The position numbers were made by a program, and so were the translations under genes. The notes beneath the pieces are model-generated. The model was not told the origin of the DNA, did not search any database, and saw only the letters and a program-made list of their open reading frames with translations. DNA of 64,000 nt, taken from Chitinophaga pollutisoli. GTDB taxonomy: Bacteria; Bacteroidota; Bacteroidia; Chitinophagales; Chitinophagaceae. Positions 53,384 through 61,140 of this stretch are shown one piece after another; positions within the stretch are counted from its first letter, which is position 1, and every line of letters begins with the position of its first letter. The stretch covers positions 4,370,001-4,434,000 of the forward strand of contig NZ_CP149822.1 in the NCBI RefSeq assembly GCF_038396755.1, written 5' to 3'.

Positions 53384-54148
53384 ATGAATTTTAATCTTTC
53401 GCAAATTCCGGAAAGAACCAGCAAACCGCGCAGCCATGGCCTGACCATGGTGATGGACAAAGGCCTGAGCGTAGAAGAAGTGAAGAATTTCCTGTCCGCC
53501 GCGGGCCCGCATGTGGATATCGTGAAACTTGGCTTCGGAACCTCTTTCGTTACGCCCAACCTGCGCACCAAGATTGAATTGTATCAATCCGCCAATATAC
53601 CCATCTATTTCGGTGGCACCCTGTTCGAGGCATTTCTGATCCGCAACCAGTTCGACGAGTATGTTCGTGTCATCAAAGATTACGGCATCAGCTACATGGA
53701 AGTGTCCGACGGATCGATCACCATTCCGCATGCAGAGAAATGCGGTTATATCGAGAAGCTGACCAAACACGGTCTCGTACTGAGCGAAGTGGGCAGCAAG
53801 GACGCAGAGCACATCATTCCTCCCTACAAATGGATCGAGCTGATGCGCGCCGAACTGGAAGCCGGTTCCAGCTACGTGATCGCGGAAGCGCGCGAAGGCG
53901 GCAATGTGGGCATTTACCGCGGCAGCGGCGAGGTGCGCGAAGGCCTGGTGCAGGAAATCCTGACCCAGATCCCCGCTGAGAAAATCATCTGGGAAGCGCC
54001 GCAGAAAGACCAGCAGCTCTACTTCCTGGAGCTTGTGGGCTGCAACGCCAACCTGGGCAACCTGGCCCCGAACGAGGTGATTCCCCTGGAAGCCATGCGT
54101 GTCGGGCTTCGAGGAGATACCTTCCACCTGTTCCTCGACAAAGAATAA
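53384..54148 (+). CDS. comA: phosphosulfolactate synthase, ComA family
   Basis: 254 residues. ComA adds sulfite to phosphoenolpyruvate to give phosphosulfolactate, the first step of coenzyme M synthesis in methanogens. Bacterial homologues exist in Bacillus and in Bacteroidota. Motifs visible: GLTMVMDKGLSVEEVKNFLS, VDIVKLGFGTSFVTP, GISYMEVSDGSITIP and AEAREGGNVGIYRGSGEVRE. Bacteroidota do not make coenzyme M. A role in sulfolactate or cysteate supply for sulfonolipids is inference. A terminator separates it from aroE. Confidence 0.92.
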   Translation: MNFNLSQIPERTSKPRSHGLTMVMDKGLSVEEVKNFLSAAGPHVDIVKLGFGTSFVTPNLRTKIELYQSANIPIYFGGTLFEAFLIRNQFDEYVRVIKDYGISYMEVSDGSITIPHAEKCGYIEKLTKHGLVLSEVGSKDAEHIIPPYKWIELMRAELEAGSSYVIAEAREGGNVGIYRGSGEVREGLVQEILTQIPAEKIIWEAPQKDQQLYFLELVGCNANLGNLAPNEVIPLEAMRVGLRGDTFHLFLDKE

Positions 54149-54165
54149 GCATCCTATTTTTCCGA

Positions 54166-54197
54166 AGGCCAGGACCGTAACGCCCTGGCCTTTTTTA
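54166..54197 (+). terminator. intrinsic terminator of comA
   Basis: AAGGCCAGG (54166-54174) pairs with CCTGGCCTT (54185-54193), and further T follow. It lies inside an open extension upstream of aroE and so argues against a far-upstream aroE start. Confidence 0.88.
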
Positions 54198-54218
54198 TCT
54201 GACGAAACCCCCTGCATC

Positions 54219-54940
54219 GTGCGATTATTCGGCCTTATCGGCTTTCCGCTCAGCCATTCCTTCTCGAAAGGATTCTTCACGGAAAAGTTTTCCCGTGAAC
54301 AGATCCCCGGCTGCACTTACGAGAATTTTCCCATTCCCGATATTTCCGCATTCCCGGCATTGTGGGAGGAAAATCCCGCGCTGGAAGGGCTGAACGTCAC
54401 CATCCCATATAAACAGGCTGTGATCCCGTATCTCGATGAGCTTTCGGATGCCGCGAAGGCCATCGGCGCCGTGAATTGCATCCGCCGCGAAGGTAAGCGC
54501 CTGATCGGGCATAATACGGATGTACTGGGATTTGGAAGATCGCTGAAACCCTTGCTGAAGGCGCATCATACGCAAGCGCTGGTACTCGGGACCGGGGGGC
54601 GGCTTTAGCGGTTAAATACGTGTTGAAAGATTTTAATATCGCATTTTCGGAGATCAGCCGGAGCGGACCGCTTACTTACGCGTCCGTTACACCCGAAATG
54701 ATGGCATCTCATACATTGATCGTGAACACAACGCCACTGGGCATGTATCCCAATGCAGATGCGGCTCCGCCGTTGCCGTACGAAGCTGCCGGACCGGAGC
54801 ACCTGTTTTATGATCTGGTATATAATCCGCCGGAAACCCTTTTCATGCGGAAAGGAACAGCGCAAAAAGCCGTGGCAAAAAATGGGTACGAGATGCTGAT
54901 CCTCCAGGCCGAGGCTTCCTGGGAAATCTGGAACCGATAG
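54219..54940 (+). pseudogene. aroE: shikimate dehydrogenase, interrupted by a single-base frameshift
   Basis: AroE reduces 3-dehydroshikimate to shikimate with NADPH in aromatic amino-acid synthesis. From GTG 54219 the first frame has the substrate site FPLSHSFSKGFF, NVTIPYK and GAVNCIRREGKRLIGHNTD, then breaks at VLGTGG. The second frame continues AVKYVLKDFNIAFSEISRSG and ends normally with NGYEMLILQAEASWEIWN. The break is at a six-G run (54594-54599) inside the dinucleotide-binding loop. One added G gives GTGGAALAVKYVL and a 240-residue protein of normal length. An assembly error is likely. Confidence 0.9.
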
Positions 54941-55008: not shown

Positions 55009-55086
55009 GTTTTCTTTTTCCCGTTTACATTCGCTGAAATCATTGTTAACCCGCGGTCAGTTTACCTGGCCAGCCATTGTTTGTGT

Positions 55087-58000
55087 ATGAAAAACCTGCT
55101 TCGGGCTATTTGCGCCCTGTTACTTTTAACCGTTGCTGATGCCACCGGGCAAGTCCCGGATGCCGCGCCACCGCCGCGTTTGCAGGCGCCGTTGTTGCCA
55201 GGGGCATATCCGGCCGGGGTGCCGTTGAATTATATCCGGACCTGGCAGCCGACATGCGCTTTGCGCGATGCGCAGGCCTTGCAGCAGCAAGGAAAGGAAT
55301 TGTGGGAGACGAAATATTTCGATGGGTTGGGAAGGGCGGTACAAACAGTGGAGAAAGGAAAGAGCCCGCGGCGCGGAGACATCGTCAGTATCTCCATCCC
55401 TGAAACGCGGGGTGGGGAAGGACGGGAATACCTGCCCTTTACTTTCGAAGGCGGCAACGGGCGTTTCCGGAACCATGCTTTTGCGGATCAATACCGTTTC
55501 TGGAGTACGATGCAGCCGCAGGAACAGGTGTTCTTCGGGAGCAAATCGAAGGATTTGTCCCCGGACGGGCGGGTCAGGAAAATTTGCGCGCCGGGAAATA
55601 ACTGGCAGGGAAACGGCCGGGGACAATCTTTTCTGTTTCCCGCGCACTTGAAGCCGGATGATGTCGCCTGCTGGAAAACCGGTTTGCAGGAAGGCGCCCT
55701 GCCTGTATTTGCAGGTATGTATGGAACCGGTGCTTTGCAAAAGGAAATTTCGGTGGATGAGAACAACCGGCAACTAGTTACCTATAAGGATAAAGAAGGG
55801 AGAGTCATAATGCGGAAAGCTCCGGTGGCGGCAGTTTCAGAAAACGGGCATAACGGATTCGCATGTACGTACTTCATCTTCGATCCATTGGGCCGGTTAC
55901 GTTATATTATCCCGCCAAAGCTGGTGGAAGTACTGGCGGCAAATGGCTGGAAATTAACAGCAGTGCTCGCTGCGGACCTGGCTTTTCGTTTTGAATACGA
56001 CGCCCGCGGCAGAAAGGTCATCGCGCGGCTGCCCGGCATTCCGGAAACGGAATATGTATACGACGCCCGCGACAGGCCCGTGTTGCAACGTGGTGGAAAC
56101 CTCCGCGCCGCGGGCCGTTGGATGGCGACCGGGTACGATGCGCTCAACCGGCCGGTATTGACCGGTATATTGACTACGGCTTTGTCTGGCCCCGCGTTGC
56201 GGGAATGGCTGGGGAAAAATGCCATCCTGCCACCCGGCAATTTGGATACGCTTACGCAAACATTTTATGATCACTATCGGTTTCCGGGAGCGGCTTTCTT
56301 GTTGCCGGTGGAAATGGAAAAGGTCCGTGTGGCGGGAGGTGCATCCGGCGATCCGCAGCCCGCCAGTGAATCGGCGAACGGAAAAGTGACGGGCATGCGG
56401 GTAAAGGTGCTTGGGACTAACCGCTGGTTGCTGCGCACATTCCGGTATGATCAGAAAATGCGCCTTTGCCAGGAAACGGGCATGTTGCATAATGGTGTCA
56501 CGGAAACGATTACACGTTTGTATAATTTTTCAGGAAAGGAACTTGTCAGCCGCCATTTGCATGGGCATCCCCGCAGCAAAGTTTTGCAGGTCGTGCAAAC
56601 CAATTATCAGTACGACCACGCCGGGCGAACGTTATCCGTTTCCCTCCGGTTAAATGATAATCCTGTGCATCAGCGGACTGTAGCGAAAATGGAGTATGGT
56701 CCTTCGGGAGAATTATCCGGTAAATCATTTCTACGTGCAAACGGCAGCGTGCTGGAAAGCTTGCAATACCAGTACAATGTGCGGGGCTGGCTCACGGGAA
56801 TCAACGCGGACTTCGTGCAACCGGTTGCGGCGGCACCGCATTATTTCGGGCAAACCCTGCACTACGACCAGGGGTTTTCCCAGAGGCAGTTCAATGGAAA
56901 CATCGCGGGCATGCAGTGGAAGGGGAGTTGCGAACCGGTGCGCCGGGCATACGGCTTTACGTATGATCCGCTGGACCGTTTGCTGGTGGCGAGGTACAGC
57001 CAACCCGGCAGTACGAATCCCCCTAACTTCGATATGATCCTGGGCAATGGTGCCGATCCGGCACAGGCATACGATCTCAACGGTAACATCAGGCGGCTGC
57101 GGCATTGGGGAGCGAGAGGCGTGCAGTTGTCCTTGCTGCTGGACGATCTCCGGTATCAATACGAGGGGCCTTCCGCCGGAAAAACAGGCAATCAATTGCT
57201 GGGGGTGGCTGATATCGTGAAGACTAAGGCGCCTGATGCGGGGGATTTTACGGATGATCCGGGGGCGTCTTTGTCGGATTATGCTTATGATTTGAACGGC
57301 AACATGACCCGTGACCGCAATAAAGGTATCGACAGCATCCGTTGGAATGTGCTGGATCTCCCGGAAGAAGTAATTGTAAATGGAAAAGGTAAAGTGCAAT
57401 ACCAATACGATGCGGCGGGCAATAAGCTGTCGCATTCCGTTATCAGCTACAGTGGAGGGAAGGCGGCCGTTGTGCGCGTCGATTATTTGTCGGGGTTTGT
57501 ATACCGGAATGATACCCTTCAATTTTTTTTGCATGGAGAAGGCAGGGCGCGGCCCGTTCCCGGGGAGCGGGGGCATCGGGGTTCGCCTGGGATTATTTTG
57601 TGCGCGACCATTTGGGGAGCGTCCGCATGATATTGACCGATGAGTCTTCCGCAACGGTGTACCAGGCAACCATGGAGCCGTCCCGCGCGAGCCTGGAGCA
57701 ACGCTTATTTAGCCAGGTGGATGCAGTACGGGGGCATTGCCATCTGGTTTCCCTAAAGCGCAAGGGGTGGCGAATACGGCCGCGGCGCGCCTGAACGGAA
57801 AAGACCCTAAGCGGAGAGTAGGGCCGGCGTTGGTGTTAAAGGTGATGCCGGGCGATACCTTGCAGGCTGCTGTGAAGGCTTTTTACCAGCAGCAGGTCGG
57901 TGTGTCACCTGCTTCCGTTGCACCTTTGCAGGATATGGTGCATGCGGTGCTGGGGGCGTTTGGCAGTGCGGGGATAGCGGTTGCCGGGAAGAACGGCGGG

Positions 58001-59377
58001 GCGGTGGAATGGCAGTCGCCATTTTCGAACAAGGGAACCGCGGAAGGTTGGCAACGGTTATTGCAAAAGGAAACCGCCAAGCCAGATGCGCGCCGGCCAA
58101 GGGCGTTCCTGCATTTCCTGTTGTTTGATGAACAATTGGATTTGGTGACGGCCCACAGTTATGTCAAACAAGTGAGTGCAGCGCCGGGTGTTCTGCAGGT
58201 GATAGGAGAGGGCCCTTCCGTGATGAAACGCAGTGGATACTTATATGTTTTTCTGAGCAACGAATCGCAGCAGGACGTGTACTTCGACGATCTGACGGTG
58301 AGCATGCGCCATGGTCCGGTTGTGGAAGAAACGCATTATTATCCTTATGGGCTTGTGATGCCGGGGATCAGTGTGAAGGCATTGCGTAAACCGGGGAACA
58401 ATGTTCTTTTTAATGGTAAGGTATTACAACAAATCGAAGGAAATGGTGTTGTTGATCTGGAATGGTATGATTACGGCGCAAGGATGTTTGACCCCCAGCT
58501 TGGCAGATGGTTATCCCCTGATAAATTAAGTGAGCAGTATGAGTCTGTGAGCCCTTATGCGTATGCATTAAACGACCCCGTGAATGCAATTGATCCGGAC
58601 GGTAACCTGATCATTTTCGTGAATGGATTTATGATACATCAATGGATGGCGCAAGACCACCGGCTGACGATCCGGACGGCGCATCGGAGTTTGGTGGACA
58701 GGGGGACGTACCTCACGGAGTTCACGCAACAGCGTAATCCGAATTTCAGGCCGTATCCGGGAGAAAGGACTTTTGCGGAAGGAGCACCAACATATCTCGG
58801 GAAGCCTTTCCAGTATTGGGGTAACATAGACGATGTTATCATGCAGGGGCACAACGACAAGAATGCCCGGTACATCAGTGCTTCGGCGGACAATGCTTCC
58901 CAGGCGCATGAGCGGTATGCAGACGGCGCCATGGCGGCCCGGAGGCTCATCCGGCAGCTGGATAGCAAACAGATTCCGTTGGCCAGCGATGAAACGATCA
59001 AGATCGTGGGGCATAGCCAGGGCGCGGCGTTTGCGGCGGGAATGGTAAGTGTGTTGTCGAAACATGCGAAGTATTCTTCACGGTTGGAGATCGCTTATTA
59101 TATCGCGCCGCATCAGCCGGGAGATTTTTTGCACAGCGCAAAAGTAAAAGGGCAGCAGTGGTCCACCTTCCACGACTGGGTGACCGATGGGTGGAATTTT
59201 ATACACCTGTTTAACGGAGGGTCGAAGAATCAGAAGATTGAGGGGGTGGGAGAGACGAATTACAAGTTGAGAGATCCTTGGGTGGAGGGAATGGGTGGGC
59301 ATTATGTTGAGACTTACCTGCAAAATATAATTCAATACTTCCAGGATTTGGGAATTCAAGTAAACGTATATCAATGA
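55087..59377 (+). pseudogene. RHS polymorphic toxin with lipase-like C-terminus, two single-base frameshifts
   Basis: About 1430 residues once two missing bases are restored. Signal peptide MKNLLRAICALLLLTVADAT, a DUF6443-like region (YIRTWQPTCALRDAQALQQQ), many YD/RHS strands (YEYDARGRK-type), a breakpoint region DHLGSVRMILTDE, a beta module of about 180 residues, then the core end RMFDPQLGRWLSPD and DPVNAIDPDG. The tip after DPDG (about 255 residues) has GHSQG with a serine at 59015-59017, a typical lipase/alpha-beta hydrolase nucleophile elbow. Breaks are near 57562-57581 and at the five-G run 57730-57734. The next gene overlaps its stop (ATGA). Confidence 0.88.
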
Positions 59378-59901
59378 TGAAGAAATTAGTTTCAACTTTT
59401 ATTTCACTGTTTTTTTTTAGTTGCCGATTTATAGGTGATGTCGCATTCGAAATGAAGGAACAATGTATAGATGAGAAGTTAATTGATCAGAAACATTCTC
59501 TTGGGATTATCAAAATCAAGAAGTCATTTGAGGATACTTTTCAAATTTGGCGAAAGGATTTCGAGATTTTTGGATCTGATAAATACATGGAACATTACGT
59601 CGATGACATAGTCTTTTTAAATCGAGATTCTAGTAAATGTATTTTGCTTGTACTTAAACGTGCGAGAGAAGGACAGATTTCCCATGTTTTTGGTACTGCA
59701 CGTGTAATCAAAGGTATGATGAATAATGGAATTTGGAATTTCTTTGCCAGTCAAGAATTTTTATATGAAAGAGATTTTTTTAAGAAATATCAGAACAACT
59801 CTTTTGGTACAATCTCAAAATTGGCTAGATACTCAGTATTGAAAATTGGAAACCCACCAAAATTGGGCTGCGAAATCGATGAATCATATTGGTTCAAGTA
59901 A
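59374..59901 (+). CDS. candidate lipoprotein immunity protein for the RHS toxin
   Basis: 175 residues overlapping the RHS stop codon by four bases (ATGA). A second ATG lies at 59377. The N-terminus MMKKLVSTFISLFFFSCRF looks like a lipoprotein signal with Cys at about residue 17, which would place the protein in the periplasm or at a membrane face, where a lipase toxin would act. The body is mixed alpha/beta with no family I recognise. It is far more AT-rich than its neighbours, as is common for exchanged toxin-immunity cassettes. Role as immunity protein is inference from position. Confidence 0.65.
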   Translation: MMKKLVSTFISLFFFSCRFIGDVAFEMKEQCIDEKLIDQKHSLGIIKIKKSFEDTFQIWRKDFEIFGSDKYMEHYVDDIVFLNRDSSKCILLVLKRAREGQISHVFGTARVIKGMMNNGIWNFFASQEFLYERDFFKKYQNNSFGTISKLARYSVLKIGNPPKLGCEIDESYWFK

Positions 59902-59976: not shown

Positions 59977-60165
59977 CTACGACTCCCTGAACGCGGGAAT
60001 TTCTTCCAGGTTCATGTAAACGATTTTTCCTTTCGCCCGGGCGATTTCGCGCATATAATCCGCTCCGGTGGAGGCGCCTCCAATCCTCAAAACCCCATCG
60101 CAAAAATCGATCAAATTCGCCGCGAATAAACCAGGGAAAATAGCCCTGTAAATTACTAATTTCAC
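59977..60165 (-). pseudogene. truncated DUF4406-like (deoxyribosyltransferase-like) remnant
   Basis: The minus-strand frame encodes about 62 residues whose C-terminal part, FCDGVLRIGGASTGADYMRE then KGKIVYMNLEEIP, matches the end of DUF4406 proteins (CDALLRLPGESxGAD and GKPVYYSLEEIP, recalled by eye). The usual N-terminal half, about 50 residues with the YVAGPY motif, is absent. It probably survives as the tail of a lost gene or a mis-started small gene. The stretch 59902-59976 holds nothing recognisable. Confidence 0.4.
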
Positions 60166-60189: not shown

Positions 60190-61140
60190 ATGGATAAACT
60201 CAGGATAGCCACCGCGCAATTCGAAAACCGCAGTGGCGATAAAAAATACAACCTGGATATCATCGATCAGCTCGCCGGGAAAGCCGCGGCCGAAGGCGCG
60301 CAGGCCATCGCTTTTCATGAGTGTTCCATCACGGGGTATACTTTCGCCCGCCACCTCGACCGCTCCCAGCTCACCGATTTGGCGGAATATATACCCGATG
60401 GCCCCAGCATTCGAAGGCTGCAGGAAATCGCCGGGAAACATGATATCGCCGTGCTGGCCGGGCTCTTTGAAAAGGATGAGCAGGGCGGCCTCTACAAAGC
60501 ATACGTCTGCGTCGATAAAACCGGGCTGCTGGCGAAGTTCCGGAAACTGCATCCCTTTATCAATCCGCACCTCACGCCCGGCAGCGCATACTGCGTGTTC
60601 GACCTGTATGGCTGGAAGTGCGGCATCCTGATCTGTTACGATAACAATGTCATCGAGAACGTCAGGGCCACGAGGCTCCTGGGGGCGGAGGTGCTGTTTA
60701 TGCCGCATGTAACGATGTGTACACCATCCACCCGTCCGGGTGCGGGTTTCGTGGATCCCGCGTTGTGGCATAACCGTGAGAACGACCCCACTTCCCTCCG
60801 CCTGGAATTCGATGGGCTGAAAGGCCGGGCCTGGCTCATGAAATGGCTGCCCGCCCGGGCTTACGATAACGCGATGTATTGCGTTTTCTCCAATCCAATC
60901 GGGATGGACGATGATCAGCTGAAGAATGGATGCTCGATGATCATCGACCCCTTCGGCGACGTGCTTTCCGAATGCAGGAACCTGGGCAACGACTTCGTGA
61001 CAGCCACGCTGACACGGGAGAAGCTCACCCAGGCAGGAGGGCACCGCTATATCCGCGCCCGCCGGCCCGCACTGTACGGCGAAATCCTTGCCCAGCCCCA
61101 CACGCCGGAACAAAAAGTAGTGTGGCTGGAGAATAAATAG
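60190..61140 (+). CDS. carbon-nitrogen hydrolase (nitrilase superfamily)
   Basis: 316 residues with the Glu-Lys-Cys triad at E44 (FHECSITGY), K119 (FRKLHPF) and C149 (GILICYDNN). Members cleave amides or nitriles, or condense to carbamoyl products. The NVRATRLLGAEVLFMPHVT stretch follows the active site. The substrate is unknown. The insertion around residues 185-205 (GAGFVDPALWHNRENDPTSL) is distinctive. It stands alone, diverging from the DUF4406 remnant. Confidence 0.92.
   Translation: MDKLRIATAQFENRSGDKKYNLDIIDQLAGKAAAEGAQAIAFHECSITGYTFARHLDRSQLTDLAEYIPDGPSIRRLQEIAGKHDIAVLAGLFEKDEQGGLYKAYVCVDKTGLLAKFRKLHPFINPHLTPGSAYCVFDLYGWKCGILICYDNNVIENVRATRLLGAEVLFMPHVTMCTPSTRPGAGFVDPALWHNRENDPTSLRLEFDGLKGRAWLMKWLPARAYDNAMYCVFSNPIGMDDDQLKNGCSMIIDPFGDVLSECRNLGNDFVTATLTREKLTQAGGHRYIRARRPALYGEILAQPHTPEQKVVWLENK

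Follow-up and report, generated by a model that had tools for sequence, protein, structure and literature searches.

The question raised by this locus is whether an RHS gene of Chitinophaga pollutisoli and the small gene overlapping its stop codon together form a toxin-immunity pair, and, if so, where such a toxin would act and how it would get there. The locus lies in a 64,000-nucleotide (nt) stretch, hereafter the window, comprising bases 4370001-4434000 of a single-contig genome (6.08 Mb, 99.99% complete), which a first-pass annotation had described as holding an RHS toxin with a lipase-like tip and an overlapping lipoprotein immunity candidate. We consider it likely that the locus is a polymorphic-toxin cassette, in which an antibacterial lipase tip is borne by a Sec-exported RHS protein and paired with a lipoprotein immunity protein. 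The support in hand consists of the predicted fold of the tip, its conserved triad residues, the lipobox of the partner, the recurrence of the pairing and the polymorphism of the chromosomal site.

The tip and the lipoprotein encoded behind it

The C-terminal tip (58604-59377 on the forward strand, stop included; coding 58604-59374, TGA at 59375-59377) spans 257 aa, two more than first reported. Its predicted structure, with a predicted local distance difference test score (pLDDT) of 92.4, is an α/β-hydrolase close to lipases, and it shows both the nucleophile elbow and, by conservation, the Ser-Asp-His residues of that fold: Ser138 in the GHSQG elbow (59015-59017, the codon already singled out by the first-pass annotation) and Asp191 (59174-59176), the predicted triad acid, occur in 29 of 29 rows of alignment A1, and His233 (59300-59302), the predicted triad base, in 28. 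Fold and triad together back the earlier description of the tip as lipase-like. The closest database match (96%) is labelled Chitinophaga sp.

The next gene (59374-59901, forward strand) is as had been claimed in three respects: its start at 59374 makes a 4-nt overlap with the end of the tip gene, it is AT-rich (32.0% GC, the tip having 51.5% and the window 52.4%), and in its 175-aa product a lipobox-like FFFSC-17 follows a hydrophobic N-terminus. By our own lipobox rule the protein qualifies as a lipoprotein, and the column of Cys17 is invariant across the 11 rows of alignment A4. Its AF2 model (pLDDT 86) shows four main strands plus a short one, with helices surrounding them. The protein gives no Pfam match at E<=1, and profile searches place it in a family, here termed family A, of 64 proteins including the window's own, many of them distant.

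Scanning genomes with the tip alignment yielded 22 loci, all in records named as Bacteroidota, and at 20 of these the tip is followed by a gene for a lipoprotein-like protein of 178-229 aa. This gene is placed -29 to +23 nt from the tip stop at the 17 loci that allow the measurement; the other three are L031 and L037, whose matched tip frames contain stops, and L023, where no stop separates tip from partner. The exceptions are L019, which runs off its contig end, and L016. At the latter, an 89-aa membrane protein takes the place of the lipoprotein behind the lipase tip (L016:2417-2683), possibly a third kind of immunity. The remaining partners fall into two families: family A comprises that of the window and those of L017 (Mucilaginibacter), L018 (Pedobacter) and L023 (Saprospiraceae), and family B those of 17 loci. 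BLAST gives no links between the two at E<1e-3, profile comparison aligns their N-terminal signal region only, and none of the scanned members of either has a Pfam match over the cut-off. Within family B the tip and partner distances correlate (r=0.58 over 14 loci; 0 of 2000 permutations as high), a correlation to which common host descent could add, and partners differ more from one another than tips do (mean identity 28% and 52%, respectively). With 50 relatives of the tip recovered at E<=0.01 and the pairing recurring elsewhere, the association goes beyond chance; the directly downstream gene goes with the tip, as is characteristic of RHS polymorphic toxins, and we regard it as the immunity candidate. 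One Saprospiraceae contig has its lipase tip and a family-A sequence in a single open frame, a fusion-like arrangement (L023:1189-2493 and P0034).

Of 394 genomes from the taxonomic family, 11 have a tip match (E<=1e-5) and six a family-A match (E<=0.001), the window's own being counted in both. In the window and in genomes G140 and G180 the family-A gene overlaps the stop codon of a hydrolase-tipped RHS gene; the tips of the latter two are about 29% identical to that of the window over the aligned parts (179 and 77 columns, respectively), with AHSMG replacing GHSQG. In G205 the family-A gene is cut by the contig end. Across 395 genomes of the phylum no family-A member beyond the window's own was detected at E<=1e-6.

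The state of the locus and the alternatives

A number of observations weigh against the cassette. The first concerns the RHS gene, which is not one open frame: reading through it takes frames 1, 3 and 2 in turn, with changes at about 57.56 and 57.73 kb that were previously missed and that lie in G-rich stretches. The N-terminal piece (55087-57560 in frame 1, the open reading frame 55081-57630 continuing to 57630) begins with a stretch that, judged by eye, resembles a Sec signal, in agreement with the earlier claim, and contains DUF6443 (E=2.3e-23) and RHS repeats (RHS_repeat, E=3.2e-11) in the Pfam scan. It is followed by a short stretch with VRDHLGSVR... in another frame (57590-57736, limits approximate), with an unmended frame change on each side, and by the piece with the RHS-associated core (57737-58603; TIGR03696, E=1.4e-16), all on the forward strand; this core ends in DPDG with the tip beginning right after it, as had been stated. 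Pieced together from the three frames, the layout is that of an RHS polymorphic toxin, with RHS repeats and an RHS-associated core preceding a variable C-terminal tip.

The frame changes are probably assembly errors, a broken gene being the alternative. We read them in this way because the upstream neighbor aroE, which forms the left flank of the site (54099-54940, forward strand), is likewise divided at a G-run, its two parts (54099-54608 and 54620-54940) being in different frames. In four relatives the two halves share a frame, with 24 nt between them; the split in the window thus suggests homopolymer errors in the assembly. Owing to the two changes, this RHS copy may or may not be expressed as a whole protein. 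The tip and the downstream gene are each intact, and the analysis therefore rests on these two.

The surroundings of the locus provide a view of its history. The tip is matched at E<=0.001 in 11 of 79 genomes of the genus, with only three matches, the window's own included, below 1e-38. Eight relatives were compared around the downstream carbon-nitrogen (CN) hydrolase, the right flank of the site (60190-61140, forward strand; PF00795, E=1e-38), which is syntenic in relatives. Four of them keep the order TPR-ComA-aroE-CN hydrolase-methyltransferase, have no match to the RHS pieces, the tip or the immunity gene at the site, and carry there a complete small reverse-strand gene, of which the window retains a remnant encoding the last 55 residues (59986-60153, reverse strand; tblastn 71% identity, E=2.8e-22). 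A further relative, G450 (a 65% complete, frame-shifted assembly), has in the same place an orphan family-A gene (L085:1567-2079, minus strand), 34% identical to that of the window, with no RHS match in 10 kb. The regions of the other three have only the hydrolase gene in common. Since the window and G450 both keep only the last 50-55 residues of the reverse-strand gene, cut at nearly the same point, the cassette probably arrived once, before the two lines split, and in one of them the toxin was probably lost later or the cassette exchanged. The occupancy of the site in relatives, along with the recurrence behind lipase tips, supports the immunity candidacy of the overlapping lipoprotein gene.

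The same facts lend themselves to another construction, namely that the copy in the window is a decayed relic, its toxin half broken and the immunity lipoprotein alone still useful as an orphan shield. Two RHS frame changes within about 200 nt speak for it, as do the solitary family-A gene of G450 and the loci L031 and L037 (two of 21 lipase tips), where stops interrupt the matched tip frame beside an intact lipoprotein gene. We nevertheless hold it to be a possibility of the lesser kind: aroE, 3 kb off, is split at a G-run yet lies in one frame in four relatives, which fits G-run assembly errors, and the tip frame has stayed open with its triad residues kept.

The distribution of family A also includes cases that do not fit a strict pairing with the lipase tip. 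In G175 (L045) the family-A gene belongs to an array downstream of an RHS gene whose tip is of another kind, in G215 (L044) the 10 kb that hold it contain no RHS gene, and in G450 (L085) it is again away from RHS genes. The occurrence of the downstream gene apart from RHS genes, which the first-pass annotation had named as a sign against its proposal, is thus real (L044, L085), but polymorphic-toxin systems often include orphan immunity genes. The array in L045 (3983-7943) consists of small, partly duplicated genes behind the RHS gene, with the family-A gene last, and is possibly an immunity array.

A separate set of objections bears on the target of the tip. The structural comparison proposed at the outset did yield an α/β-hydrolase near lipases, but the top match is a thioesterase level with the lipases, the TM-scores from Foldseek are low (normalised by query length, 0.25-0.41 among the 50 matches listed), and in the Pfam scan the tip reaches the cut-off of no lipase-family sequence profile. 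The substrate is not fixed by the predicted hydrolase fold. The tip could instead hydrolyse a non-phospholipid target, such as a thioester, an acylated protein, a peptide or lipopolysaccharide acyl chains, and still be countered by the lipoprotein. This we judge unlikely, as Lipase_3 is the commonest weak Pfam match among the tip members (five of 10 at E<=0.01) and a membrane-anchored partner is the rule across the tip family. The tip is not assigned to Tle3 (PF24322), its best Pfam match, which scores 16.2 bits against a cut-off of 27, with no sheath match of a type VI secretion system (T6SS) in the genome either; Lipase class 3 (PF01764) likewise stays below its cut-off, at 14.7 bits against 22.

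The specificity of the partner was assessed against 29 fetched Chitinophagaceae RHS loci, one per genome, out of far more RHS cores (such cores occur in 40 of 60 genomes drawn from this bacterial family); by profile their tips show no resemblance to the lipase tips (best E=0.21). The lipobox rule holds for 20 of 21 lipase-tip partners, L023 being the exception, versus four of 21 readable downstream genes at the other RHS loci (Fisher p=7e-7), a contrast that has to be read with the rule having been loosened after missed partners were seen (the strict rule gives 17/21 versus 1/11 readable, in the same direction) and with the loci not being independent by descent. It is very improbable that the downstream lipoprotein helps to export the RHS protein or to anchor it at the surface rather than conferring immunity, for although a lipoprotein-like product follows the tip at 20 of the 22 loci, whose hosts are varied, the gene tracks the tip type and not RHS proteins generally, two families without detectable kinship fill the role, an orphan copy lies without RHS at the G450 site, and in family B the partner is the more diverged of the two.

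Proposed action and delivery

In the cassette reading, the RHS protein would leave the cytoplasm by Sec and then cross the outer membrane in a further, presumed export step, for which a type IX secretion system (T9SS) is a possible route. RHS toxins release the tip after DPxG, and the tip in the window would accordingly be set free after DPDG. The serine-lipase tip is predicted to hydrolyse the membrane lipids of a competitor from the periplasmic side and thereby kill it. The lipoprotein would sit at the membrane attacked by the lipase and neutralise the enzyme both in kin and, while export is under way, in the producer, presumably by binding to the tip. A lipoprotein antidote would place the action of the toxin at a membrane outside the cytoplasm and would so limit the possible delivery routes.

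The delivery route, declared unclear by the first-pass annotation, stays so, although candidates are now at hand. No match to the T6SS sheath protein VipB was found in the genome, from which search a divergent T6SS sheath could escape. A strong SprA match points to a T9SS translocon. An extracellular contractile injection system (eCIS) cluster (L120; G000:C1:4164000-4183000) with two sheath genes, CIS_tube, a baseplate hub, Baseplate_J and PAAR lies about 250 kb from the RHS locus and holds the only PAAR_motif match of the genome. The earlier statement that neither PAAR nor VgrG is encoded nearby is borne out for PAAR; for VgrG it stands without a genome-wide search. A Sec signal implies a periplasmic RHS protein, which would fit a lipoprotein antidote in that compartment and would fit cytoplasmic eCIS loading poorly.

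A more general proposition, which we put forward tentatively, is that lipase-tipped RHS toxins are widespread in Bacteroidota, exit by Sec and an outer-membrane step without an injection machine, draw on two unrelated, interchangeable lipoprotein immunity families, and leave the immunity gene to be kept alone at toxin-free sites. The two unnamed immunity families, together with a site found in empty, immunity-only and toxin-plus-immunity states, offer a clean system for studies of delivery and immunity swapping.

Relation to known systems

The combination of a lipase effector with a lipoprotein immunity protein is already known in kind. In Tle1/Tli1 of enteroaggregative E. coli and Tle3/Tli3 of adherent-invasive E. 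coli, as presented in parts of PMC9860674, a T6SS lipase effector with an α/β-hydrolase fold, an HSQG elbow and the Ser-Asp-His order is countered by an outer-membrane lipoprotein, Tli1 being encoded downstream of tle1. By analogy the cassette may work in the same manner, Tle3 being also the best, if sub-threshold, Pfam match of the window tip. The differences are that the lipase in the window is carried as a tip by a Sec-type RHS protein instead of being VgrG-bound, in a genome with no T6SS sheath match, and that Tli3 has three stacked β-sheets (PMC9860674, same parts) where the family-A model has helices around strands.

Likewise, α/β-hydrolase tips on RHS polymorphic toxins (Tox-ABhydrolase-2 and -3) and the lipoprotein immunity protein Imm65 are already listed in the sections of Zhang et al. 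(2012; PMC3482391) that treat them. Tox-ABhydrolase-3, as compared through the published table and not by a profile, shares with our tip a GHSxG motif on RHS proteins, a listing for Bacteroidetes and a presumed action on lipids; it differs in its listed immunity proteins, Imm66/Imm69, those for Tox-ABhydrolase-2 being SUKH (same sections). The window partner has no Pfam match at E<=1, a result that bears on Imm66/Imm69 only if Pfam includes these two families. Imm65 is given in these sections as strictly associated with Tox-JAB-1 and as the only apparent lipoprotein among the immunity proteins collected there; it too is a lipoprotein behind a Bacteroidetes RHS toxin, but one with a Tox-JAB-1 tip, and none of the scanned members of families A and B matches a Pfam family over the cut-off. 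The TANFOR/BaCT proteins, as far as portions of PMC7073777 describe them, are likewise polymorphic toxins of Bacteroidetes for which an immunity gene downstream and a hypothesised T9SS route are described, but have another chassis and a DNase tip, and a term search of that text returns neither lipase nor lipoprotein.

Our literature search found no paper that pairs the tip family with the two lipoprotein families, none naming DUF6443 and nothing on Rhs with Chitinophaga and polymorphic toxin. The suggestion that the pairing may be undescribed therefore holds for the particular families, the scanned members of which match no Pfam family over the cut-off, but not for the general kind (PMC9860674, in part). 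The same genome has a second DUF6443 RHS gene (L121:2396-7534; G000:C1, about 722.4-727.5 kb), which is followed by a gene of the lipobox type that lacks a Pfam match and codes for a 160-aa protein.
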